From Treponema primitia ZAS-2 (GTDB taxonomy: Bacteria; Spirochaetota; Spirochaetia; Treponematales; Breznakiellaceae), in contig NC_015578.1 in the NCBI RefSeq assembly GCF_000214375.1, forward strand, positions 2,480,001 through 2,544,000: a stretch of DNA of 64,000 nucleotides, given 5' to 3'. Both the position numbers and the translations under genes were made by a program. Shown here in pieces: positions 28,615 through 49,446 of this stretch (positions are counted from its first letter, which is position 1; the number at the start of each line of letters is the position of its first letter). The notes under the pieces were generated by a model. It searched no databases. It was not told the origin of the DNA and saw only the letters and a list, made by a program, of their open reading frames with translations.

Positions 28615-29591
28615 CTACCCTATACTTACCACCTCTTCCAGGGAAAGCCCCATAGCCGCGGCAATTTGTTCATCCGGAAGCCCCAGGGCTTTAAAATTTC
28701 GTATCGACTGGCGCATCACTTCCCGGTTGCGTTTTTCCGATTCCCGGTTGCGTTTTTCCGATTCCCGGTTACGCTTTTCTGCTTCCTCGGCACGCTGTTC
28801 CGCTTCCTCGGCATGAATTCTCAGTTCCTCAAGATACTTATGCTCCCTGAGCATTTCGTCAAAATCTATCATGAATTTTACCTCCTCATATTCTTCATAA
28901 CCCTTGTACAACTCGGTAAACAAACGGCCCATAAGCTTTCCGGCCTCGGCCGCATCTCCCGGCACAATATCTCCCGCTTGCTGCGCCCGGTCTATGGCCT
29001 CCACTATCTCAGCGTGTAACGCGGGCAATTCCCGGAACAGTTCTTTCCGCCGCTCCAGCGTACGGGCCGTAGCTATCTGTTTCCGCAGCTTCAGGGCGTG
29101 CATGGGCAGCAGGATGACCATGTGCAGTACTGTACATGAGCATCCCGGTCCGGAAACTTGAATACCGATACCTCAAAATCATAATACGCCTCTTTTGTAA
29201 ATTGCAAGCGAATTTTTATCAGGTCCGGGGTTCGACGGCTGGTCTCCCAGTAGATTACCCGGACCTGAGGAAAGGTCAGGGTGAGCAGAGTCTCCCTGGC
29301 GGAATATTCCGCCCCTTCCAGGGCATACCGGAAGATCCGGGTAGCAATGTGCATGTCGTCGCCTATCTGTGTTTCGATAAGGTAGCTGTCCTTACCGATA
29401 GTGACGATCAGGTCCGAGACGGTTTTGCTTAATCCGGCGCCGACCTTTTCGGTTTCCAGGTAACTCACCGGGCTGTCCAGGGGGTGGTTGGTTCCGAAAA
29501 GACCGTTGATTACATTGATAACCGCCCTATTTGAGAGATGCATAAGAAACTTGAACGATCGATCAAAGATATCGTGTGTGGTTCTATCCAT
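28615..29591 (-). pseudogene. Rpn/YhgA-like PD-(D/E)XK nuclease, frameshifted
   Basis: Two adjacent frames make up one family member. The 5' part (ATG at 29591, GGAGG 6-7 bases upstream) encodes the nuclease domain: DIFDRSFKFLMHLSNRAVI and DSYLIETQIGDDMHIATRIFRYA. The 3' part (28615-29121) continues with TVLHMVILLPMHALKLRKQI, a helical region and a charged coiled coil. The frame has to shift by -1 (or +2) near 29125-29135 to join them. Whether this is a mutation, a sequencing error or recoding is open. Such genes occur in many variable copies in some bacteria. The tail holds a 21-bp tandem repeat coding SEKRNRE. Confidence 0.8.
28720..28782. repeat. 21-bp tandem repeat, three copies
   Basis: Units at 28720-28740, 28741-28761 and 28762-28782; the first two are identical, the third differs at several bases. 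They encode SEKRNRE heptads of the coiled-coil tail of the Rpn-family protein. Confidence 0.9.
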
Positions 29592-29736
29592 CGATAGCCT
29601 CCTTAACACAGGGTTTAGGGGTAAATACGAGGGATTTGCTTTAATGGGACGGGAAAAAATATGAAAGAAGGAAGAGAAAGCGCAAAAACCGGGGGGTAGC
29701 GGAAGACCACAGGTCTGGAGCGTAGGGGGGCCGGAC

Positions 29737-29775
29737 AAAAAAACGCCGTTTCTGGAAAATAGGCCTGGAAACAGC
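29737..29775 (-). terminator. Intrinsic terminator after the GH57-like gene
   Basis: GCTGTTTC and GAAACGGC pair over 8 bp with one G-U and a 15-base loop, followed on the minus strand by G and seven T residues (29743-29737). It begins 10 bases after the stop codon. Confidence 0.65.
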
Positions 29776-29784
29776 CCCCCCCTC

Positions 29785-31677
29785 CTAATGAGAAATTGTA
29801 AGTTTAAACTCGGTCTCCCAGCGCTCCTCGCTTTTCAGGCTCAGGGCCAGGGCGGGCATGAGGCAGGTGGATTGGTACTGGTCTGTCACGGTATCACGGA
29901 TTTTTAACTTCGTGCGGATGGGTAAAATCCAGGCGTTAAAATCCCGGTCTGCGGTAAGGCCCAGGGTAAGTTCATTTTTGATGTCACGGAATTCAATGCC
30001 CCGGACATTGCTAATCTCTGCGCCCCCTCGTATAGCCGGCTCCGGGTCCTGGGCATGGGAGCGGTATACCTTGAGAAGTTCCTCCCCGTCTCCGGAAAAA
30101 GACAGATCAAGCTGGGGTATGAACTTAAAGGACGACTGAGCTTCACCCCGGTTGATTAGAGCGTAGCGTACCATTAGGGTATCCTGTTTCAGCACATAAC
30201 TCTTTTCAATTTCAATCCAGGAAAGATACGGGGTGGTCCCGGCTTGTTTGTTGACCGGGAGGCGGAAGGCGGCTTTTCCGTGGGATCGATCCATCTCCAC
30301 AAGCTCGTAGCTGTCCTTACCGCAGAACCGGGAAGCGGCAAAACGTCCCTCCAGGGCATCCTTGAAGGAAAAGTCCGGGGGTACCAGGCGGTCCACAAAG
30401 GCAGTCCTCCGGTAACCGTCCTCAATTCCTGGTTCCATCTGGAGTGTATCAAGGCGGCGGGAAAAGGTGTCCAGGTAATTCCAGGTTTTGGGAAGGTAAT
30501 CAAGTTCAAAAATGCTGGCCCCGGAGCTTTTTACATAGCAGTTAATGTTTCTGTCCTGGAAGAGATATTCAGGCCGGCCGTCAAGATCAAAATCAAAGGC
30601 CAGCAGGGAAGGGACAAACTTTCCCCCGGTCCGGCATATCTTTTCTGCGGCCAAGATGGACTTGTAAGCAGCTTTTCTGAAGGAGGAACGGCGAATGCCG
30701 CCGTGGGTATCGGCATCACAGAACAGGGAATAGCCCTGGGCTTTCCAAAGTTCTTCCCGGGCGCTCTGCTTCCGGGATTTATCCCCCCGCAGTTGATTGA
30801 TCTGAGAATGGGTGAATATCATCTTCACGTAAATCCCATTGGCTTCGGGGAAGGCGATTAAAAACTTCCTTTCCTGATCCCCTGGGAAATAGGCCTTTTT
30901 AAGCTTTCCCTGGGTTTTATATACCTTTCCCGGGGTGGTGAATTCCAGGTTTTTTGAAGCCTCAGCCAGGGCTTCAAAAAACCGCCCGTAGGTAGTTTCA
31001 GGGGTTTCCCCGGGATCCTCAGGGTGCAGCTGATTCGGAAAAACCGTAACCAGGGCGCCGGGGCTCAGATTCCGGATCAGGCGCTCCAGGACTGCCTTGG
31101 GGTTCTCCCGGGTAAATTCCCAGCTCAAGGCGGCGGCCAGGGGGAACACGGTGCTGATCTTCCCCTGGTTTTCACTAATAACTGGGGCGCTTAGGCCTGC
31201 TTGGTCCGGGCTTTCAGGTACGCCGAAATGATCCTCGTCTAAAAAAGTATAGCCCATGCCACAGGTATTCAGGACCCCCACCAGCTGTTGTTCCCAGGCA
31301 GCTCCGGGGATCCAGCAGCCCTGGGGCCGTTTACCGAATTTTTTACGGAGGTAGGCGGTTAGCATTTCTATCTGCCCTATCTTATCTGATTGGGGCAGTA
31401 GGGGCATCATGGGTTCATAGAATCCCCCGCCCAGAATTTCCACCTGTTTCCGGGAAATCATATCCCCCAGGAGCATGGTTAATTCAGGATGGGAATTTTC
31501 AAGCCAGGTGAGCAGGGACCCCGAATAGTGCAGCGCCGCAGGGATCTTAGGGTATTGATTAAGGGTCTGAATGAACGGCTTCAACCGGGTGGCGTACAGG
31601 TATTCTCCCTCATCATCGCCTGAGCCAATGGGAATATGATTATGCGAACCTAAAATAAAACCCGGTTTCTCGTTCAT
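29785..31677 (-). CDS. GH57 glucanotransferase-like protein, probably catalytically inactive
   Basis: 630 residues. N-terminal GSHNHIPIGS is the HNHxP motif of glycoside hydrolase family 57. Further family landmarks are EILGGGFYEPMMPLLP and QGCWIPGAAWEQQLV, then GMGYTFLDEDHFGVPE. The C-terminal half (from about 380) resembles the beta-sandwich domain of GH57 4-alpha-glucanotransferases. In the active family the third landmark, as I recall it, reads TERVWxPEL with a catalytic Glu; here GAAW replaces it. The DDGEKFG region carrying the acid/base Asp also looks missing (VTVFPNQLHP). It may be a regulatory or glucan-binding pseudoenzyme. ATG at 31677; the Shine-Dalgarno is weak and distant. Confidence 0.75.
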   Translation of the reverse strand: MNEKPGFILGSHNHIPIGSGDDEGEYLYATRLKPFIQTLNQYPKIPAALHYSGSLLTWLENSHPELTMLLGDMISRKQVEILGGGFYEPMMPLLPQSDKIGQIEMLTAYLRKKFGKRPQGCWIPGAAWEQQLVGVLNTCGMGYTFLDEDHFGVPESPDQAGLSAPVISENQGKISTVFPLAAALSWEFTRENPKAVLERLIRNLSPGALVTVFPNQLHPEDPGETPETTYGRFFEALAEASKNLEFTTPGKVYKTQGKLKKAYFPGDQERKFLIAFPEANGIYVKMIFTHSQINQLRGDKSRKQSAREELWKAQGYSLFCDADTHGGIRRSSFRKAAYKSILAAEKICRTGGKFVPSLLAFDFDLDGRPEYLFQDRNINCYVKSSGASIFELDYLPKTWNYLDTFSRRLDTLQMEPGIEDGYRRTAFVDRLVPPDFSFKDALEGRFAASRFCGKDSYELVEMDRSHGKAAFRLPVNKQAGTTPYLSWIEIEKSYVLKQDTLMVRYALINRGEAQSSFKFIPQLDLSFSGDGEELLKVYRSHAQDPEPAIRGGAEISNVRGIEFRDIKNELTLGLTADRDFNAWILPIRTKLKIRDTVTDQYQSTCLMPALALSLKSEERWETEFKLTISH

Positions 31678-31791: not shown

Positions 31792-32421
31792 CTAGAAAAC
31801 CCCCAAAACCCGGAGGAAAATAGCCGAAATAGAGGAAAAGATCAGGGAAAGGAGCCCCATGGATATGAGGATCAGGGGAGAACCCCGCAGGACCCGGGGA
31901 ACCGCTTCCAGGGAAGACCGTTTCCGTATCTCCCGGAGGATCAGCACCGACACCAGGCAGCCCAGGGTAAAGCCCAGGTCCAGTACCACCGCCTCCACGA
32001 AGCTTAGGGCCAAACGCAGGGTAAGCAGCAACGCCCCCAGGGCCAAGCCGTTACCCGAGGAAAGGGAGCTGAAAAATTTCAGATCCGGAAAACCGCCGGC
32101 TCCCCCGGATTTTTTCTGTTTCCAGCGCCTTCCCCCGGGGGAAAAGAGATAATCAAAAAGCAGTTCAAGCCCTGTTAAGGCCGCTGCGACTGCGGGGAAA
32201 AGCAGAAAGGACTCGAGAAACCCGAAGGCAGGAGCGCTCAGGATAAACGTAAAAAAAAGCCACAGGATTAGTACGGTTAAAAAAAGGATGATCCATTGCC
32301 GGGGGGAAAAAGTTTTCCCGTCATTGCGATCCGCAATAATGTCGGAAAGCCCAAGCCCTGTCTGGAGCATCAAGTTCAGGGAAAGGCCGGAAAAAATTGC
32401 CAGGGCGCCCAGGGCGATCAT
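31792..32421 (-). CDS. RnfA-like membrane protein lacking conserved cysteines
   Basis: 209 residues, about six membrane helices. Order in the cluster (C, D, G, E, A) and the sequence VVLDLGFTLGCLVSVLILREIRKR support an RnfA assignment; true RnfA has a similar GFtlal...iRE stretch. RnfA normally has a cysteine in an LGLCPFxGV motif that binds a membrane [2Fe-2S] cluster. Here the equivalent reads LNLMLQTGLGLSDII with no Cys. Only one Cys exists in the protein, near residue 160. The start overlaps the rnfE-like stop by four bases. Confidence 0.65.
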   Translation of the reverse strand: MIALGALAIFSGLSLNLMLQTGLGLSDIIADRNDGKTFSPRQWIILFLTVLILWLFFTFILSAPAFGFLESFLLFPAVAAALTGLELLFDYLFSPGGRRWKQKKSGGAGGFPDLKFFSSLSSGNGLALGALLLTLRLALSFVEAVVLDLGFTLGCLVSVLILREIRKRSSLEAVPRVLRGSPLILISMGLLSLIFSSISAIFLRVLGVF

Positions 32422-33044
32422 TGATCATCCTCCCACTGTTTCTTGAAACGCCTGAAGAGGGCAAGGCCGTAACCCAGGAGCAGGAGCCCCCCGGAGGAAC
32501 CGACGATTATCGAAATAGGGAAGTACAGATCATCCCCCAGGCGGAATAGTTCTACTATGCCTTGGGATCCTCCGGGAAGAGAAAGGGAACCGAAACCCAG
32601 GGGTTCCCTGATCAAGGCCATGGCGATGAACAACCCCCCCAGGACCAGGGCTTCTATCAGGGACTTGGTGATAGCTTCTTCGGGTTCAATGTCCGCTATA
32701 CGCCGGCATACCCCTGACCCGATGAAGGACAGGGGAACCAGGATGATTATAAAAAGTGTTTCCATTGCCAAATAGGGGCTGATAAAATAAAAAAGCATGA
32801 GGTATATGCTGCTCAAAAAACTGGACAGAAACACCCAGACTATATCCCGCCCCTTTAAAGGCAGTATGGGTTTCGCGAAGGCCGCTACAAGCGCGGCGAT
32901 CCCATACACCCAGATCAGGGCCCCTGCGGCGGTGATGGCAAAAGCCAGCCGCGCCGAGGCTATGATCATCAAGGCGGCGCTGGCAAGGGTGGAAAGAGGG
33001 GCGTTACTCCCCCAAAAGGGATGGGATTCCCGTTTAGCGCTCAT
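32418..33044 (-). CDS. RnfE-like membrane protein lacking conserved cysteines
   Basis: 208 residues from the ATG at 33044, with a run of G about 6 bases upstream; a longer frame opens at 33158. About six helices. It aligns by position with RnfE: PLSTLASAALMIIASARLAF at the N-terminus and ALIREPLGFGSL in the C-terminal half (RnfE has REllGfGtl there). The LGLCP and VNCAxLGRAEAF cysteine motifs of RnfE are replaced (ASAALMI; LVPLSFIGSGVCRRIADIEP). One Cys remains one turn away. Its start overlaps the rnfG-like gene by 11 bases. Confidence 0.68.
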   Translation of the reverse strand: MSAKRESHPFWGSNAPLSTLASAALMIIASARLAFAITAAGALIWVYGIAALVAAFAKPILPLKGRDIVWVFLSSFLSSIYLMLFYFISPYLAMETLFIIILVPLSFIGSGVCRRIADIEPEEAITKSLIEALVLGGLFIAMALIREPLGFGSLSLPGGSQGIVELFRLGDDLYFPISIIVGSSGGLLLLGYGLALFRRFKKQWEDDQ

Positions 33045-33534
33045 TTTCATCCCCCCGGCTGTTTCGTATGATGGCCTCACCAGCCTCAATACGCCGTATA
33101 TGGGTTTGCAGCTCCCCCGGGGGCAGCCGTTCCAGCAAACGGGCCGAATGGGCGCCAAGGGGAATTGGGGGGCCCAGTTCCCCTTGGGGGGAAATCAACA
33201 CCACAAAGGGGGCCAGGATGCCCCCGGACATAAACGAAAAAACTGCCGCACTGCCCTTGCCATCCTCCAGGGTATACCAGCTGCCAATTTGGGAAAGTTT
33301 CCCCGCCTTCCACCGCTTAAGCTTTCCTCCAAAGGCAAGGGGGCCTTCCAGTTCCCGGGATTCTCCGGCAGCCAAAATAGAACGGTTAATATTTCTGATA
33401 ACGAACCTGGTCCGTACCGGTTGGGTGAGGAACCAGGTCAAGCCGCCTATGAGAAACAATCCGGCTAGCCAGCCCAGGAAGATACCCGCCTCTTTCAACT
33501 TGCCCGTGATTTCCGGAGATCCAAAAAGCGTCAT
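33034..33534 (-). CDS. Short RnfG-like membrane-anchored protein without flavin site
   Basis: 166 residues. One N-terminal helix (AGIFLGWLAGLFLIGGLTWFL) and a periplasmic domain, the topology of RnfG. It occupies the RnfG slot between D and E. The C-terminal SGATxSS motif that covalently carries FMN in RnfG is absent, and the protein ends before where it would lie. Sequence similarity alone would not identify it; the call rests on position and topology. Its ATG overlaps the rnfD-like stop by four bases. Confidence 0.55.
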   Translation of the reverse strand: MTLFGSPEITGKLKEAGIFLGWLAGLFLIGGLTWFLTQPVRTRFVIRNINRSILAAGESRELEGPLAFGGKLKRWKAGKLSQIGSWYTLEDGKGSAAVFSFMSGGILAPFVVLISPQGELGPPIPLGAHSARLLERLPPGELQTHIRRIEAGEAIIRNSRGDENER

Positions 33535-34682
33535 AGCCGGTCCTCCCCTGGGGGAATTTCACCGGAACTTCTCCTGCTGAAACCAAGGTCGGAAGTACCA
33601 TCATGAAGGTAGAGCCTCCGGGTCTCAAAGTACCGTAATAGGGGAATAAGGGCATTGATCAGGAGAGTTGCGAAAAAGGCGCCGTAGGGTTCAACCCCCC
33701 GGTAACGGAACACAAAACTGAAAAAACCCGCCAGCACCGAGGCCGCCAGAACGCCGATATGGGACTTTGGCCCCGTGGAGGGATCCGCTGCCAGCAGAAA
33801 TGCTGCGACCAAGGTTCCCCCGGTGAAAAAACCGAAAAGTATATCCCCGTTACCCCGGAGATCCCCAAAGGGCAGGCCGCCAAAAAGCCGGATGAGCAAA
33901 CCAAATATTCCCAGAAAGGAAAGGGGAACCCAGGCATGGCTTACCTGGCTGGCGCTAATAATAATCGTCCCAAGGAGGAGGGCCAGCACCCCCCGGTCGG
34001 CGATAATGCCCGGACCGGAATACACCAGTAGATCGATATACCCCCCGGGAAGCTCCGCCCCAGTGATCGAAAAAATAGTTTTATTAAGGAAGGGCGTAAG
34101 AATACTATCCAGTGTACCGGGAGCGAAAATCTCTGCTCCTGCATTAATAATTTCCAGAGGCGAACCATGGGCGGCGCCTGCATTCAGACTGTTCGTAAGA
34201 ACACCCAGGGAGGAACCTTCCAATGCGGCATTGAACGCCCCGGGCCAGCCGAAACGGACAAAGAGCCAACCCCCCAGGGCGGGATTAACCCAATTGGTCC
34301 CCAGCCCGCCAAAACTGTGCTTAACCACCAGCATGGCGAAGAGGGCGCCCAGGAAGGCAAGGAAGGGGTGTATATGATTGGGCAAGAGCAGCGTCAAGAT
34401 CAGTGCTGAAGCCACGGCGCTGCCATCCTGAAAAACGGCCCCGGGAATTGTCCGGCCTGAAACATGGCTTATCAGCAGTTCTGCCATCAGAGCGCCGAGT
34501 ACCGCAAAAAGGGCAATGAACATCGAAGAAAACCCATCGGTCAGGGATGATTGCAAGATGGTGAACCCCGCACAAATACTAACCAGCCACATCCGGGCGG
34601 AGGTGGAACGGGCCAGGTTTATCTGGGGTTTCTGAAAAGGCTGGGGGAATAAACTCCGGAACCAGGGCGTGATTTTAGACAT
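33531..34682 (-). CDS. RnfD-like membrane protein
   Basis: 383 residues from the ATG at 34682, overlapping the rnfC-like TGA by one base; the frame continues upstream into rnfC. About nine helices. The RnfD/NqrB signature is strong: QDGSAVASALILTLLLP and KHSFGGLGTNWVNPALGGW. In RnfD an SGAT motif after the NPA region carries covalent FMN on Thr. Here the region reads ALEGSSLGVLTNS, with no SGAT, although a Ser could in principle replace the Thr. A second conserved patch is LAADPSTGPKSHIGVL. It would form part of the ion-translocating core. Confidence 0.82.
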   Translation of the reverse strand: MSKITPWFRSLFPQPFQKPQINLARSTSARMWLVSICAGFTILQSSLTDGFSSMFIALFAVLGALMAELLISHVSGRTIPGAVFQDGSAVASALILTLLLPNHIHPFLAFLGALFAMLVVKHSFGGLGTNWVNPALGGWLFVRFGWPGAFNAALEGSSLGVLTNSLNAGAAHGSPLEIINAGAEIFAPGTLDSILTPFLNKTIFSITGAELPGGYIDLLVYSGPGIIADRGVLALLLGTIIISASQVSHAWVPLSFLGIFGLLIRLFGGLPFGDLRGNGDILFGFFTGGTLVAAFLLAADPSTGPKSHIGVLAASVLAGFFSFVFRYRGVEPYGAFFATLLINALIPLLRYFETRRLYLHDGTSDLGFSRRSSGEIPPGEDRL

Positions 34683-36178
34683 CAGTGGCCCCTCCGGGAG
34701 CTGTTTTCCGTTACTTGCAACGTAGTCTCCCGCGCTACTTGCAACGTAGTTTCCCGCGCTACTTGCAACGAAGTTTCCCGCGCAAATTGCAACGAAGTTT
34801 CCCGCGCAGCATTGGTGATCACCGTACTCAGGGGCAGCCGTGAAGGGCAAACCAGTTCACAACAGCCGCAGCCGTGACATTTACCCGCCGACGACTCCAG
34901 TAGTTTTACCGGATCAGAAGAAGGAAAACGGACAGATATTTCATCCTGATCATCTTTCATCTCCAGGGAAACCCCGACGGCCTTAAAAAGTTCCTCCGGG
35001 TCCAAGCCCACAGGGCACACGGCCCGGCATTCCCCGCAGCTGATACAGCTCCCTGAGCGGCTTCCCCCTGTCTGGCCTTCCAGCAGGGCAAATATGGCGT
35101 AGCTGGTTTTGATAACCGGCTCATCCAGGTCCGTCACGGTGCGGCCCAACAGGGGGGAGCCTGAGGCTATCCGTTTCGGTTTGTCAATAAAGCCGCCGCA
35201 TTCGTCAAAGAGTTCCCCCATACGGGTGCCGATTCGTACCTTCATCACCTGGGGATGGACCACTGCGGATCCGCCTACTGCAATATACCGGTCCAGAATG
35301 GGTTTTTTCAGTTTGACCGCATCGTAAATCGCCGCCAGGGTAGCCGGCCCCAGGGGCAGGATGGAACCCAGTTCAAAATTTTCTTTCTTGGCATACATGC
35401 GGAGAACCATTTCTAGTTCCCGCCGGTTTCGTTGGGGATACCGGGAACCCACCAGGGCAACCGATGCGGGGATATCATAGGAAGCCGCTTCCGCAAGGAA
35501 CAATTCCCCCAGTTCCCGTTCCTTCCGGGAAATCGCATAAATGATGCGATCCGCCTTTCCCGCCTTGCCCGCAATGACGCTGCCCTCCACCACTACCTTG
35601 AGCCGTTCCTTGCAGAGCACATAATCTGCCGCAAGCCAAGGATCATCAAATACGCAGTTGACCACCAGGGCATGGGGCTCCTCCAGGGCGCAAAAAACTG
35701 ACAGGAGTTCCGACACCGAAAGGCCGGACCCTTCCATCTCCACCACCCCATATTCTGCAATAAGCCCCTGGAGTTCCCGGGGGGACAGGCCTTCCCAGGG
35801 ATACTCCTCCTCCCGGCGGCCCAGTTTATCAAAGGCCCCTTCCAGGCGTATTACCAGGGCGTCATTGGGGTACCCTTCGAGCATATCCCAGGAAACGGTA
35901 CGCACCACCCTACCCGGCACGGTGGCGTGGACATTTGCCAAACCCGCTCCCCCCTGGCCGATAAGCATCCCCTCTTTAACCAAATCCCCGCTTTTCACCA
36001 CCGGTACAGCCCGGCCTCCGGAAGAAACTACACCGGAAGTTCCGGTTTGCTGAACCAGGGGTATGATGGACAGGGCCGGCAGAAAGGCGGTTACACTGGC
36101 ATCCCGGGAAGGGGCAAAGGGATCCTCATAATGAATCCCCCCCCGGGGGAATGAATAGACTCGTTGTTTTCCTATCAT
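34682..36178 (-). CDS. RnfC-like iron-sulfur protein with altered flavin/NADH site
   Basis: 498 residues. The N-terminal barrel-sandwich is RnfC-like (VVKSGDLVKEGMLIGQGG; VHATVPGRVVRTV). Two 4Fe-4S sites are intact: CISCGECRAVCPVG near residue 375 and CHGCGCCELVCPS near residue 440. The RnfC flavin/NADH signature (GGAGFPTHVK and ECEPYLTAD) is replaced by EMEGSGLSVSELL and VFDDPWLAADY. The protein could thus pass electrons without reacting with NADH. The last 35 residues are a four-fold repeat (ARETSLQF, ARETSLQV, ARETTLQV twice) coded by the dispersed 24-bp repeat. The start overlaps the upstream gene by four bases. Confidence 0.82.
   Translation of the reverse strand: MIGKQRVYSFPRGGIHYEDPFAPSRDASVTAFLPALSIIPLVQQTGTSGVVSSGGRAVPVVKSGDLVKEGMLIGQGGAGLANVHATVPGRVVRTVSWDMLEGYPNDALVIRLEGAFDKLGRREEEYPWEGLSPRELQGLIAEYGVVEMEGSGLSVSELLSVFCALEEPHALVVNCVFDDPWLAADYVLCKERLKVVVEGSVIAGKAGKADRIIYAISRKERELGELFLAEAASYDIPASVALVGSRYPQRNRRELEMVLRMYAKKENFELGSILPLGPATLAAIYDAVKLKKPILDRYIAVGGSAVVHPQVMKVRIGTRMGELFDECGGFIDKPKRIASGSPLLGRTVTDLDEPVIKTSYAIFALLEGQTGGSRSGSCISCGECRAVCPVGLDPEELFKAVGVSLEMKDDQDEISVRFPSSDPVKLLESSAGKCHGCGCCELVCPSRLPLSTVITNAARETSLQFARETSLQVARETTLQVARETTLQVTENSSRRGH
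34713..34808. repeat. 24-bp dispersed repeat, four tandem copies at the 3' end of the rnfC-like gene
   Basis: Units at 34713-34736, 34737-34760, 34761-34784 and 34785-34808 differ by only a few bases. Read on the minus strand each starts GCGCGGGA and contains CGTTGCAA, encoding AREtsLQv octapeptides. Confidence 0.92.
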
Positions 36179-37764
36179 GCGGCGATCCGTTTATCCATAT
36201 ATTTTGAAAGTTTACCCCTTGTACTATGCCCCCGCCGGTCCCAAAAAATCAGGGGAATGCAGAGGCCCAGGCCAATCAGGGCTGAAAACAGATCCCCATG
36301 ACCGGATCCTCCTGGGACACCCCCGGCAGGAGAAACCATTCCACCATCAGTATAGGAGTAATGGTCAAGAAAATCTATCAGTCCCTCCAGGGGGAAGGGG
36401 GGAATCGCGTCCACCGAAGAAGCCACAGTTTCGCCGAAAACAAGAGTTTCGGGAAGACCGGCGATGAGCCCGTCCGTCCCAAGGGAATAGCGCCCATACC
36501 CGGAGCCCTGGCCCGGAGCTGTATTATACAGGGGGAGGAAGGAGAATTGGCTTTGAAACTCCCCATGCTTCCGGTAAATCTCGGCATTGATATTCCGCCG
36601 AGTATCCCAATCCCTTCCCCGCCCCAGGCTTGTACCAGCCGACGAGGCATTGAAAAGGGGCCCCAAAAACAGCAAGGCCAGGGAAGCCAGGGCAAAGGGG
36701 AACAGTATTCGGGAATATAATGGCGGTTTAAGGGCAATATCCGTAATCTGAACCGGAAGAAACCGTATGTGTCCCTGGTTTGCCCCGCGATTCGATTCGC
36801 TCCAGAGGGAAAGCCCCAGGAGGAACAGGAAAAAAACTGTTTCAAGAAGAAAAATGAGAGGCCCAAGCCCCCCTAAAATGGCAATAGCCCCGCAGGCCCC
36901 CAGGAATACCGCACCAAGTACCCAGAAATCCCTAAAGTAATTGAATAATTTCCTGAGGGAGGCCGGGCTGGAACCCCCCTGCGCGGGAAACTCCGTTGCA
37001 AGTGGCGCGGGGAACTTGCCGACTGAAGTCGGGCCGACTTCAGTCGGCGTTGCAAGTGCCGCCTTTTCATAACGCCGGGAGATAAAATATTCCCGAACCG
37101 GTTCCCCCAGCAGCCGTGAAAGTGCGGCCTGGGCTGCAATGAGGGCAAACCCAGGAACCCCCATCCCCGCCAGGACTGCCCAGAGGGGGAGGAAAAGGGC
37201 GGTAATCAGGGGAGCCGCCGAAAAGAACAGGGTAATGGCCGCAGCAACCAGGAAAAGAAGGGCCGGTAACAATAGGGAGCGGGGGGCTGTAAGGACTTCA
37301 AGGGAAAAGGGGATGTTTTTTAAAGCCGCCCCGACCCGGTCCTCCATACCCAGTCTGAGGGGGATAAAGAGCCGCCGTTTCCCCCGGGAAACAAAAAAGG
37401 AACGAAGCTTTTCCGCATACCCGTCATCCCGGGGATCAAAGGGCTCCACCCGGTCCCTATAAGCTTCCAGGGGCACCTTCTCCATTTCCCCAAAATCGTC
37501 CAGCAGCACCCACTGGGTGGATTCCCCGATGGAATCCCTTACCCCCTGGCCTTCCAGCAGATCCCGGATAAGGCTGTCCGGGTAGGAAGCGTCCAGACTA
37601 AGCAGGGCATAGGCCTTTCCTGACCCCCCGATGCTTCGCGGCACTTCCCGCGTTCCGGTTAAAGCCGGCGCTGTCTGGGGCACGCCATAGTTTATGAGAA
37701 AGAACAAACCCCCAAGAATCAGAGAGACTGCCATTGAAAGTACAAGCGATTTTAGAAAAGACAT
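36175..37764 (-). CDS. Large membrane protein of the Rnf-like cluster, unknown function
   Basis: 529 residues. One N-terminal helix (LVLSMAVSLILGGLFFLINY), then a soluble domain of about 120 residues. Four or five helices follow in the middle (LLLPALLFLVAAAITLFFSA and onward), then a periplasmic or cytoplasmic loop and further helices up to the tail FSALIGLGLCIPLIFW. No domain is recognised and it is not RnfB: there is no ferredoxin cysteine motif. It is translationally coupled to the rnfC-like gene (ATGA overlap), suggesting a subunit specific to this cluster. Residues 235-270 come from the dispersed repeat with a palindromic insert. Confidence 0.6.
   Translation of the reverse strand: MSFLKSLVLSMAVSLILGGLFFLINYGVPQTAPALTGTREVPRSIGGSGKAYALLSLDASYPDSLIRDLLEGQGVRDSIGESTQWVLLDDFGEMEKVPLEAYRDRVEPFDPRDDGYAEKLRSFFVSRGKRRLFIPLRLGMEDRVGAALKNIPFSLEVLTAPRSLLLPALLFLVAAAITLFFSAAPLITALFLPLWAVLAGMGVPGFALIAAQAALSRLLGEPVREYFISRRYEKAALATPTEVGPTSVGKFPAPLATEFPAQGGSSPASLRKLFNYFRDFWVLGAVFLGACGAIAILGGLGPLIFLLETVFFLFLLGLSLWSESNRGANQGHIRFLPVQITDIALKPPLYSRILFPFALASLALLFLGPLFNASSAGTSLGRGRDWDTRRNINAEIYRKHGEFQSQFSFLPLYNTAPGQGSGYGRYSLGTDGLIAGLPETLVFGETVASSVDAIPPFPLEGLIDFLDHYSYTDGGMVSPAGGVPGGSGHGDLFSALIGLGLCIPLIFWDRRGHSTRGKLSKYMDKRIAA
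36981..37058. repeat. 24-bp dispersed repeat, two copies, one with a 30-bp palindromic insert
   Basis: A complete unit lies at 36981-37004. The second unit (37005-37058) is split after 12 bases by two 15-base pieces, GCCGACTGAAGTCGG and GCCGACTTCAGTCGG. Total insert is 30 bases, so frame is kept. Confidence 0.85.
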
Positions 37765-37776
37765 GAACCGAAAAAC

Positions 37777-38265
37777 CTACAGAAAAGCGTATGCCGCAGC
37801 AATAAATATACCCAAAAGCGCCCCAACAACCACTTCCAGAGGGGCGTGCCCCTGTACCTCTTTGACCGCATGGTACTCAATGCCCAGTCGGTCCTCCATA
37901 CTATGCCCCAAATTGTTGAGGGATTTAGCCTGCATACCCGATGAACGGCGAACCCCCATGGCATCCCTCATAACGATGAGGGACATAAAAAAGGACACCG
38001 CAAACAGGTTGGAACGTACTCCTTCTATAATAGCTATTGATGTGGTCATTGCGGATACCATAGACGCATGGCTTGAGGGCATACCCCCGGTGCGCCAGAT
38101 TATGGTTTCCAACAGTTCCCTGCCGTTTCTTTTTTTTGTCTTAAGCAACAACACCACAGCCTTGACCATCTGGGCTAAGAACCAACTGGTAACGGCGGAT
38201 AAAAAAATGGGACTTTCGACAAAAAACTCAATCGAGTCGGTCCGTACTGACATTGCCAAAGACAT
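37777..38265 (-). CDS. Divergent PAP2 family (DUF212, YuiD-like) membrane protein
   Basis: 162 residues with several membrane helices. Family signatures are WFLAQMVKAVVLLL, GGMPSSHASMVSAMTTSIAI and VQGHAPLEVVVGALLGIFIA, with the paired His residues of acid phosphatase-like PAP2 enzymes. The usual role is dephosphorylation of lipid phosphates, but the substrate for this subfamily is unknown. It is the first gene of the run leading into the Rnf-like cluster, 12 bases before the next start. No Shine-Dalgarno is seen at the ATG. Confidence 0.88.
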   Translation of the reverse strand: MSLAMSVRTDSIEFFVESPIFLSAVTSWFLAQMVKAVVLLLKTKKRNGRELLETIIWRTGGMPSSHASMVSAMTTSIAIIEGVRSNLFAVSFFMSLIVMRDAMGVRRSSGMQAKSLNNLGHSMEDRLGIEYHAVKEVQGHAPLEVVVGALLGIFIAAAYAFL

Positions 38266-48192: not shown

Positions 48193-49446
48193 ATGGCAAT
48201 GGGTGAAATCTTTACTTCTCTGGTCGAACATATAAGCTCAGGCGGAGCGGGTGTCCTGAATTTCCAGGGAAAACGGGTTTTTATGGATTTTACCGCCCCC
48301 GGGGACCTGGCTGTAGGGCGGATTATAGAAGACAAGCGCAGTTGGGCCCGGGCGGAACTCCTGGAACTGTCCGAGGCTTCACCGCTCAGGGCCAGCCCGG
48401 CCTGCCCCCTCTACGGAACCTGCGGGGGCTGCTCCCTCCAGCACCTGAACTATAAGACCCAGGTCGCGGAAAAGGCGCTCATACTTCAGGACGCCTTCAA
48501 GCACATCGGGGGTATTACCCTACCACCTGCTTTCGACTTTATCCCCTCCCCGCCCTGGAACTACCGGAACCGGATGCAATTGCATTGTATTCTCCAAAAT
48601 CGCCCTCAGGCAAAAAATCACCGGGCCGGGACACATTCCGGACTACTTGCAACGCAGTTCCCCGCGCCTCTTGCAACGCAGTTCCCCGCGCAAAACCGGT
48701 TGGGCTTTATGGGCCGGAAAAGCGGCGATATCATCCCGGTTGACCGCTGCCCGGTGGCCGATCCGGGGATAGCTTCGGCCTTGCAGGAAGGCGCCATCCT
48801 TCCGCCCCCGGCAAAGGACCGGTTTACCGTCTTTTCATTTGAAACCACCCTTTTGAGCGAAGGAACTATCCGGGGAAAGGCCCAAAGCCGGGGCACGGTA
48901 ACCCTGCTGGGAAAGGAACTGCGCATGGACGCCGGGGTGTTTTTCCAGAGCAACTGCGGCATGTTGGAACGGCTCATTGGGGATCTGGCCCAAATCGCCG
49001 GTACAACAGACCGGACCCTTCCCATGGCGGACCTGTACTGCGGGGTGGGTACCTTCGCAGCCTTCCTGGGGGAACAATTCCCCCGTATCGATCTGGTGGA
49101 GGAAAACCCCGAGGCCATAGTCCTGGCCCGGGAAAATATTCGCGGCCAGGATGGGCGGCTATTCGCCCAAACTGGTGATCTCTGGGCAAAGGGCTGTACC
49201 ATGGACAGCAGCTACGGCTTCATGGTGGCGGACCCGCCCCGGCAGGGCCTGTCCCCGGCACTGCGCCGGGCCCTGGCCGAAAAAGGCCCACCGGTACTGG
49301 CCTACGTTTCCTGCGATCCCGGAACCCTGGCCCGGGACTGCGGGGAATTATTAGCCGGGGGGTACCGGCTGGAAATGCTGCGGGGCTACGATTTCTACCC
49401 CCAGACTGCGCACATTGAAAGCCTGGCGGTGTTTAGGAAGGGATGA
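48193..49446 (+). CDS. RlmD/TrmA-family 23S rRNA or tRNA m5U methyltransferase
   Basis: 417 residues. An N-terminal TRAM-like domain is followed by the iron-sulfur motif CPLYGTCGGCSLQHL. SAM-binding motifs are FQSNCGMLERLI, DLYCGVGTFAAFLGE and VEENPEA. The catalytic region is VADPPRQGLSPALR and AYVSCDPGTLARD (nucleophilic Cys). It makes 5-methyluridine in 23S rRNA or tRNA; which target is not clear. Residues about 150-167 (LLATQFPAPLATQFPA) are two copies of the dispersed 24-bp repeat, inserted between the Fe-S and catalytic domains. Confidence 0.92.
   Translation: MAMGEIFTSLVEHISSGGAGVLNFQGKRVFMDFTAPGDLAVGRIIEDKRSWARAELLELSEASPLRASPACPLYGTCGGCSLQHLNYKTQVAEKALILQDAFKHIGGITLPPAFDFIPSPPWNYRNRMQLHCILQNRPQAKNHRAGTHSGLLATQFPAPLATQFPAQNRLGFMGRKSGDIIPVDRCPVADPGIASALQEGAILPPPAKDRFTVFSFETTLLSEGTIRGKAQSRGTVTLLGKELRMDAGVFFQSNCGMLERLIGDLAQIAGTTDRTLPMADLYCGVGTFAAFLGEQFPRIDLVEENPEAIVLARENIRGQDGRLFAQTGDLWAKGCTMDSSYGFMVADPPRQGLSPALRRALAEKGPPVLAYVSCDPGTLARDCGELLAGGYRLEMLRGYDFYPQTAHIESLAVFRKG
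48645..48692. repeat. 24-bp dispersed repeat, two tandem copies inside the methyltransferase gene
   Basis: Units 48645-48668 and 48669-48692, each containing TTGCAACGCAGTTCCCCGCG. In frame, encoding LATQFPAP and LATQFPAQ. Confidence 0.92.

Follow-up and report, generated by a model that had tools for sequence, protein, structure and literature searches.

The rnf-like operon and its cofactor sites

The DNA analysed here (the window) is a stretch of 64,000 nt, bases 2,480,001-2,544,000 of the complete 4,059,867-bp chromosome of Treponema primitia ZAS-2, and coordinates are positions within it unless the chromosome is named. On its minus strand, at 31792-37764, the window carries an Rnf-like operon in the order C-D-G-E-A, with open reading frames where a sequence-only reading of the DNA had placed them. 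Genes follow one another on that strand as DUF212, X, rnfC, rnfD, rnfG, rnfE, rnfA and a GH57-type gene. From X through rnfA, neighbouring genes overlap or abut; the frames of rnfC and of the 529-residue gene X, taken as translationally coupled in the sequence-only reading, overlap by 4 nt, as do those of rnfE and rnfA. To judge from its sequence, the cofactor sites visible in this operon do not allow the known Rnf electron path to be built, and the loss of Rnf chemistry is well supported. The features are as follows.

36175..37764, minus strand: protein X, a membrane protein of 529 aa with no Pfam or NCBIfam family (open reading frame; AlphaFold model with a mean predicted local distance difference test score, pLDDT, of 79)
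34682..36178, minus strand: RnfC-like subunit RnfC2, 498 aa (Pfam RnfC_N, Complex1_51K, SLBB, Fer4)
35714..35749, minus strand: position of flavin mononucleotide (FMN) loop 1 of RnfC, canonically GxGGAxFP, now GVVEMEGSGLSV (alignment)
35636..35650, minus strand: position of FMN loop 2 of RnfC, canonically ECEPY, now FDDPW (alignment)
35015..35047, minus strand: first RnfC 4Fe-4S motif, CISCGECRAVC (residues 378-388)
34847..34879, minus strand: second RnfC 4Fe-4S motif, CHGCGCCELVC, carrying one additional Cys, as is typical in the window's family (residues 434-444)
33531..34682, minus strand: RnfD-like subunit RnfD2, 383 aa (PF03116, E 1.6e-56)
33034..33534, minus strand: RnfG-like subunit RnfG2, 166 aa, without SGAT (RnfG chains are the closest solved structures to its model)
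32418..33050, minus strand: RnfE-like subunit RnfE2, 210 aa (hhalign 96.3%)
31792..32421, minus strand: RnfA-like subunit RnfA2, 209 aa (hhalign 98.4%; TIGR01943, E 3e-10)
37777..38265, minus strand: upstream neighbour, a DUF212 (divergent PAP2) protein (PF02681, E 8e-43), adjoining in nearly all loci
29785..31677, minus strand: downstream neighbour, a GH57 / 4-alpha-glucanotransferase-like protein (PF03065, E 1e-28)

For RnfD and RnfE, starts at the ATG codons at 34682 and 33050 are more likely than starts at the upstream TTG codons of the open reading frame list. The assignment to the Rnf family, first proposed from the gene order and the RnfC and RnfD signatures, is upheld by profile-profile comparison, Pfam and the fold of RnfG alike. 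Against the canonical treponemal subunits, hhalign gave probabilities of 100 for C, 99.9 for D, 98.4 for A and 96.3 for E, with wrong-subunit controls at 0.1-4; Pfam recognises RnfC and RnfD, and RnfA and RnfE weakly. RnfG is without sequence support (3% against canonical treponemal RnfG). The five solved structures closest to its AlphaFold model (pLDDT 90) are RnfG chains with Z of 6.0-6.8, among them 7zc6_G (6.8), 9eri_G (6.4) and 8rb9_G (6.0), and its orthologues in other families retain an SGAT-type motif. The operon holds a homologous set of RnfC, D, G, E and A, with RnfG identified by fold and synteny, and the homology of the subunits is not due to chance.

With the Rnf complexes of Acetobacterium woodii, Clostridium tetanomorphum and Azotobacter vinelandii this set shares the five subunits in the clostridial/bacteroidal order, an RnfC with two 4Fe-4S motifs and a membrane scaffold. 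It differs from them in lacking RnfB, the FMN motifs of RnfC, the covalent-flavin motif of RnfG and the [2Fe-2S] cysteines of RnfA and RnfE, in its degenerate RnfD motif, and in scoring under the cut-offs of the curated rnfA, rnfC and rnfD models (TIGR01945, 195 against 246 bits; TIGR01946, 126 against 207; TIGR01943, 41 against 229).

The sites at issue have been defined in A. woodii by mutagenesis and cryo-electron microscopy, where RnfA C25/C113 and RnfE C25/C108 ligate a [2Fe-2S] cluster and further sites are RnfG T185, RnfD T156, N123 and D249, and the B8 cluster of RnfB; removal of several of these centres singly left no Rnf activity and no autotrophic growth (PMC11889175). In the window, RnfC keeps both CxxCxxCxxxC motifs, as the sequence-only reading had stated, and alignment shows its GGAGFPT and ECEPY motifs replaced by EMEGSGLS and FDDPW. 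All four ligand positions of the membrane [2Fe-2S] cluster are likewise replaced, those of RnfA by Ser and Gly and those of RnfE by Ala and Phe, and rnfB is absent from both the cluster and the window. The claim that neither RnfD nor RnfG carries an SGAT attachment motif stands for RnfG, where none was found. RnfD retains a shortened Ser version, AHGSPLEI against SGATPL, which does not match the canonical (S/T)GAT, and this GSPL-type remnant is missing from about half of the close relatives. RnfD also has Asn and Asp at the positions of the A. woodii riboflavin ligands N123 and D249. Misalignment or shifted cofactor residues can be set aside, as family alignments, profile-profile comparison and alignments to solved structures recovered nothing beyond the RnfD remnant.

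Origin, distribution and selection

A complete rnfCDGEAB with all signatures lies on the same chromosome at 4,028,093-4,033,197 (chromosome positions), 1.5 Mb from the reduced cluster, which is therefore a paralogue (hereafter Rnf2) and not the sole Rnf of the genome. The second, canonical operon that had been suggested as worth seeking is thus present, and with it the rnfB correctly reported as missing from the window.

A protein search covering 149 genomes of the order turned up relatives of RnfC in 148, and comparison with a separate canonical-RnfC search told Rnf2 apart from the canonical form. Our survey comprises 81 loci, that is, the window and 80 further Rnf2 loci; a separate collection holds 80 more loci of the window's family from termite-gut spirochetes. 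Among the families, f1 is that of the window (termite-gut treponemes) and f3 is Treponemataceae, including T. pallidum. The arrangement DUF212-X-C-D-G-E-A-(B)-GH57 recurs in f1, f3, f4 and f5, appears as X-C-D-G-E-A on a short contig in one f2 locus (L076), and is found again in other Spirochaetia; a protein of about 630 aa occupies the GH57 position downstream of the cluster in nearly all loci. Since this neighbourhood is conserved across Treponematales, the reduced cluster is not a case of local decay. Not every genome of the order has Rnf2: in about half of those in f4, canonical RnfC was the only type seen.

Both RnfC 4Fe-4S motifs are present, and FMN loop 1 is lost, in 81/81 loci. The other sites follow a gradient. 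All 27 f1 loci are without RnfB, RnfA cysteines and the RnfG flavin motif, the last being found in 0/75 of the further window-family loci as well; RnfE C108 survives in 12/27 and C25 in one. New near-invariant motifs occur in f1 RnfC and RnfD. Loop 2 of RnfC reads F/D/D in 27/27 genomes, an unbiased count, while the 78/78 for FDDPW in the further set is biased because the scan that collected those loci used this motif as one of its two patterns. In RnfD, the N123 position is Asn and the D249 position Asp or Glu in 27/27. In f3 (n=25, plus T. pallidum) the flavin sites are gone and the full AE1 cysteine set is missing, the D249 position is mostly Trp, and RnfB is either absent or reduced to about 200 aa without the B8 motif. 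The short form is found in 17/25. In L039, L096, L098-L102, L104-L110, L113 and L114 it carries a single ferredoxin-type CxxCxxCxxxC match, an intermediate stage of loss. Families f4 and f5 are intermediate, with some members retaining all four AE1 cysteines, RnfB and SGAT motifs, and in the f2 locus L076 none of the four cysteines and neither SGAT motif has been lost.

Outside the order but within the class, loci L199 and L202 are intact (GGATFP, ECEPY, four AE1 cysteines and RnfB with B8) and L196, L198, L200 and L201 are stripped. Because the intact outgroup loci share the same synteny, the loss of sites is derived, and repeated loss in several lineages is the simplest reading. In an RnfC tree a single branch (support 99) divides the canonical treponemal sequences from those of Rnf2, and f1 and f3 are each recovered as a clade, as expected under vertical inheritance; the tree was built by a quick method with a midpoint root, and a few long outgroup branches are of uncertain place.

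All genes of the cluster are under purifying selection. The ratio of nonsynonymous to synonymous substitution rates (dN/dS) was 0.05-0.39 for every gene in seven pairs of related genomes, where dS was unsaturated, and RnfC was usually among the lowest. That Rnf2 is what is left of a duplicated rnf operon in decay would fit the stepwise loss of sites, the several losses of X and an RnfC split into two frames in a locus of the same genus as T. pallidum (L206 6696-7972, genome G143), the split itself being a frameshift or a sequencing error. With dN/dS far below 1 for every gene, frames open and gene order kept across families of Treponematales, and new invariant motifs, we reject the pseudogene reading, and a relic of any kind appears highly improbable.

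Nearly all f1 genomes have Rnf2 and most also have the canonical copy, which could suggest that Rnf2 regulates canonical Rnf or assists its assembly, for instance in mixed complexes formed by subunit swapping. Rnf2 supplies the only RnfC found, however, in G013 (which we take to be the T. pallidum genome), G036, G040, G072, G098, G131 and G135, and no canonical RnfA or RnfE was found in these seven genomes, so that such a partnership seems very unlikely. Nor does Rnf2 degenerate only beside a canonical copy: it is stripped where it stands alone in G013 and G036, and near-complete beside the canonical copy in G007. Some window-family genomes carry extra full Rnf clusters (L214, L215, L216, L223) whose RnfC is 37-45% identical to the canonical one; in some of them the FMN loops are altered, for example to GGAGYP/ECEPF.

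Protein X and repeats

The AlphaFold model of protein X comprises a first transmembrane helix, a ferredoxin-like extracytoplasmic domain (residues ~51-158), about six transmembrane helices, a second extracytoplasmic segment and a C-terminal transmembrane helix. No sequence match was found in Pfam, NCBIfam or the PDB. In structure searches the nearest proteins were mostly of the resistance-nodulation-division (RND) superfamily, at values too low to establish homology (Foldseek E 0.11; VIA Z no higher than 7.1, under that tool's informative level); with SecDF, MmpL3 and AcrB the model shares the first transmembrane helix, the ferredoxin-like extracytoplasmic domain and a helical bundle, without sequence support. 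Among 296 genomes of the phylum, X was found only in Spirochaetia. The 529-residue gene keeps its place beside rnfC in 74/81 loci. Since X is cleanly missing in other loci, including T. pallidum, several f1 genera and one f4 genome, and is retained in G266 after loss of the rnf genes, it is not an obligate subunit; it is usually adjacent and evolutionarily separable. The G266 locus (L197, 5289-9407) reads DUF212-X-GH57, with the rnf genes gone from between X and GH57, which suggests a role of X apart from Rnf.

A 24-bp repeat (TTGCAACGNAGTTTCCCGCGC plus 3 bp) is dispersed through the whole genome in 128 copies at up to 2 mismatches, with none for the reversed control. Within the window it lies at 34712-34807, 36981-37001, 22237, 25850 and 48647-48691. 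It inserts in frame in coding sequence, since its copies build the C-terminal tail of RnfC as ARETSLQV repeats and one is found within gene X. At 28615-29738, two overlapping frames resemble one broken nuclease/transposase-type gene, within which a 21-bp tandem repeat (28720-28813) encodes a charged coiled stretch.

A possible function of Rnf2 and its significance

We propose that Rnf2 is an Rnf-derived membrane complex that would be unable to run ferredoxin:NAD electron transfer and would keep a cytoplasmic [4Fe-4S] dicluster platform, possibly for redox sensing or gating, a reading to which we give about even credence. In this proposal Rnf2 would descend from a complete spirochetal Rnf whose transmembrane electron path was lost. 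RnfD, E, A and G would remain in the membrane as a scaffold holding few cofactors or none, and RnfC would remain on the cytoplasmic side with two [4Fe-4S] clusters and no site for FMN or NAD. The RnfC dicluster might trade electrons with ferredoxin or flavodoxin as a soluble carrier of low potential; the membrane part would then be controlled by the redox state of the dicluster and not by electron flow through the membrane. The outcome would be a device for transport or regulation that senses redox state or is gated by it. Selection would accordingly act on what is constant, the RnfC dicluster on its membrane scaffold.

In the window's family, riboflavin held non-covalently in RnfD might possibly form a short relay to the [4Fe-4S] clusters of RnfC; with Trp mostly at the D249 position in f3, this relay would not be general. 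Several points weigh against our proposal. Assembly of the subunits and cluster binding by RnfC2 are predictions, the persistent dicluster could be structural, and the electron partner and any transported substrate are hypothetical. Moreover, some f4/f5 and f2 relatives keep a near-complete path, and part of the clade may therefore still move electrons across the membrane.

The sequence-only reading had suggested a different electron or ion machine derived from Rnf, not a standard ferredoxin:NAD complex. The derivation and the non-standard nature stand, given the lost sites and the canonical rnfCDGEAB elsewhere; an electron or ion machine is not established, and the residues proposed for the Na+ path (RnfE E115, RnfA T110/T111) are not conserved in the window's family. 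Rnf2 could still be a redox-driven ion pump, passing electrons from flavodoxin or ferredoxin to NAD or another acceptor, if its flavins were bound non-covalently, other ligands had replaced the lost ones, or RnfB were borrowed from the canonical complex. The flavin-dependent 'noncanonical' RNF proposed for T. pallidum (PMC7512555, PMC11717252) amounts to this reading, and the riboflavin-ligand positions and the GSPL remnant of RnfD, together with the nearly full path of some f2/f4/f5 members, would agree with it. The cysteine, RnfB and flavin losses of the window's operon and the unconserved Na+ residues speak against it, as does the inactivity in A. woodii of mutants from which any one of several centres has been removed (PMC11889175). 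A further point against the pump is that in G013, G036 and G040, all without canonical RnfA/E, the PF04060 (B8-type) domain of RnfB was not found anywhere. Neither ApbE nor an FMN_bind match was found in the genomes G036, G098 and G135, which are 96-99% complete and have Rnf2 without canonical Rnf, a gap that is independent evidence against flavin use; G013 encodes, outside the cluster, ApbE and a pair of FMN_bind proteins. On balance we regard a redox pump as quite unlikely.

A secondary transporter or channel without redox function, or a purely structural envelope complex, would account for a scaffold under selection after the loss of nearly all redox sites. RnfA and RnfE, with an alternating-access type of fold, would then work with RnfD without electrons and the RnfC clusters would be structural; RnfA/E are likened in architecture to solute symporters (review PMC12174285), and the weak RND-like arrangement of X would also fit. 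Nevertheless, both 4Fe-4S motifs stay constant through all 81 loci, in contrast to the drift at each of the other redox sites, which suggests that the RnfC clusters do something, and any substrate would be hypothetical; this explanation too we regard as unlikely.

The Na+-translocating NADH:quinone oxidoreductase (Na+-NQR, NqrABCDEF) is likewise a derivative of an rnf operon without rnfB (model in PMC4014512), and its NqrA, a homologue of RnfC, is without redox cofactors. Na+-NQR keeps flavins and [2Fe-2S] in NqrBCDE and has gained NqrF, whereas Rnf2 displays the opposite pattern, with the membrane cofactor sites lost and the two 4Fe-4S motifs retained in RnfC2; no NqrF-like FAD/[2Fe-2S] reductase gene was found among the cluster products. 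PrdC and RsxC also are RnfC-type proteins with partners other than ferredoxin:NAD. The PrdC model TIGR04481 gives the window's RnfC a weak match of 75 bits, where its cut-off is 490, and the locus has no proline reductase.

Rnf is taken as a diagnostic mark of ferredoxin-driven ion pumping. Annotated by gene order, Rnf2 would be called Rnf; its conservation after the loss of the catalytic centres suggests a second use of the Rnf scaffold. In the literature covered, which does not include the original 2015 proposal of a T. pallidum RNF, no account was found of spirochetal Rnf having lost cofactor sites. The T. pallidum locus (L038; RnfD is TPASS_0151 and DUF212 is TPASS_0153, PMC4403809) is an orthologue of the window cluster, without the RnfA/E cysteines, RnfB or the RnfG flavin motif. 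T. pallidum is credited with a flavin-based redox pump, while its locus shows no visible site for the required flavins or [2Fe-2S], and the RNF pump in current models of its energy conservation rests, as far as our search shows, on this stripped orthologue. It is an evenly balanced possibility that Rnf2, including the only 'Rnf' of T. pallidum, is a class-wide spirochetal machine that evolved by stepwise removal of redox centres, with no transmembrane electron transfer and a dicluster that senses or gates. If so, T. pallidum would have no Rnf redox pump, since its only 'Rnf' is of the Rnf2 type. The intact, intermediate and stripped versions in spirochetes offer a natural series on what the Rnf scaffold does without electrons.

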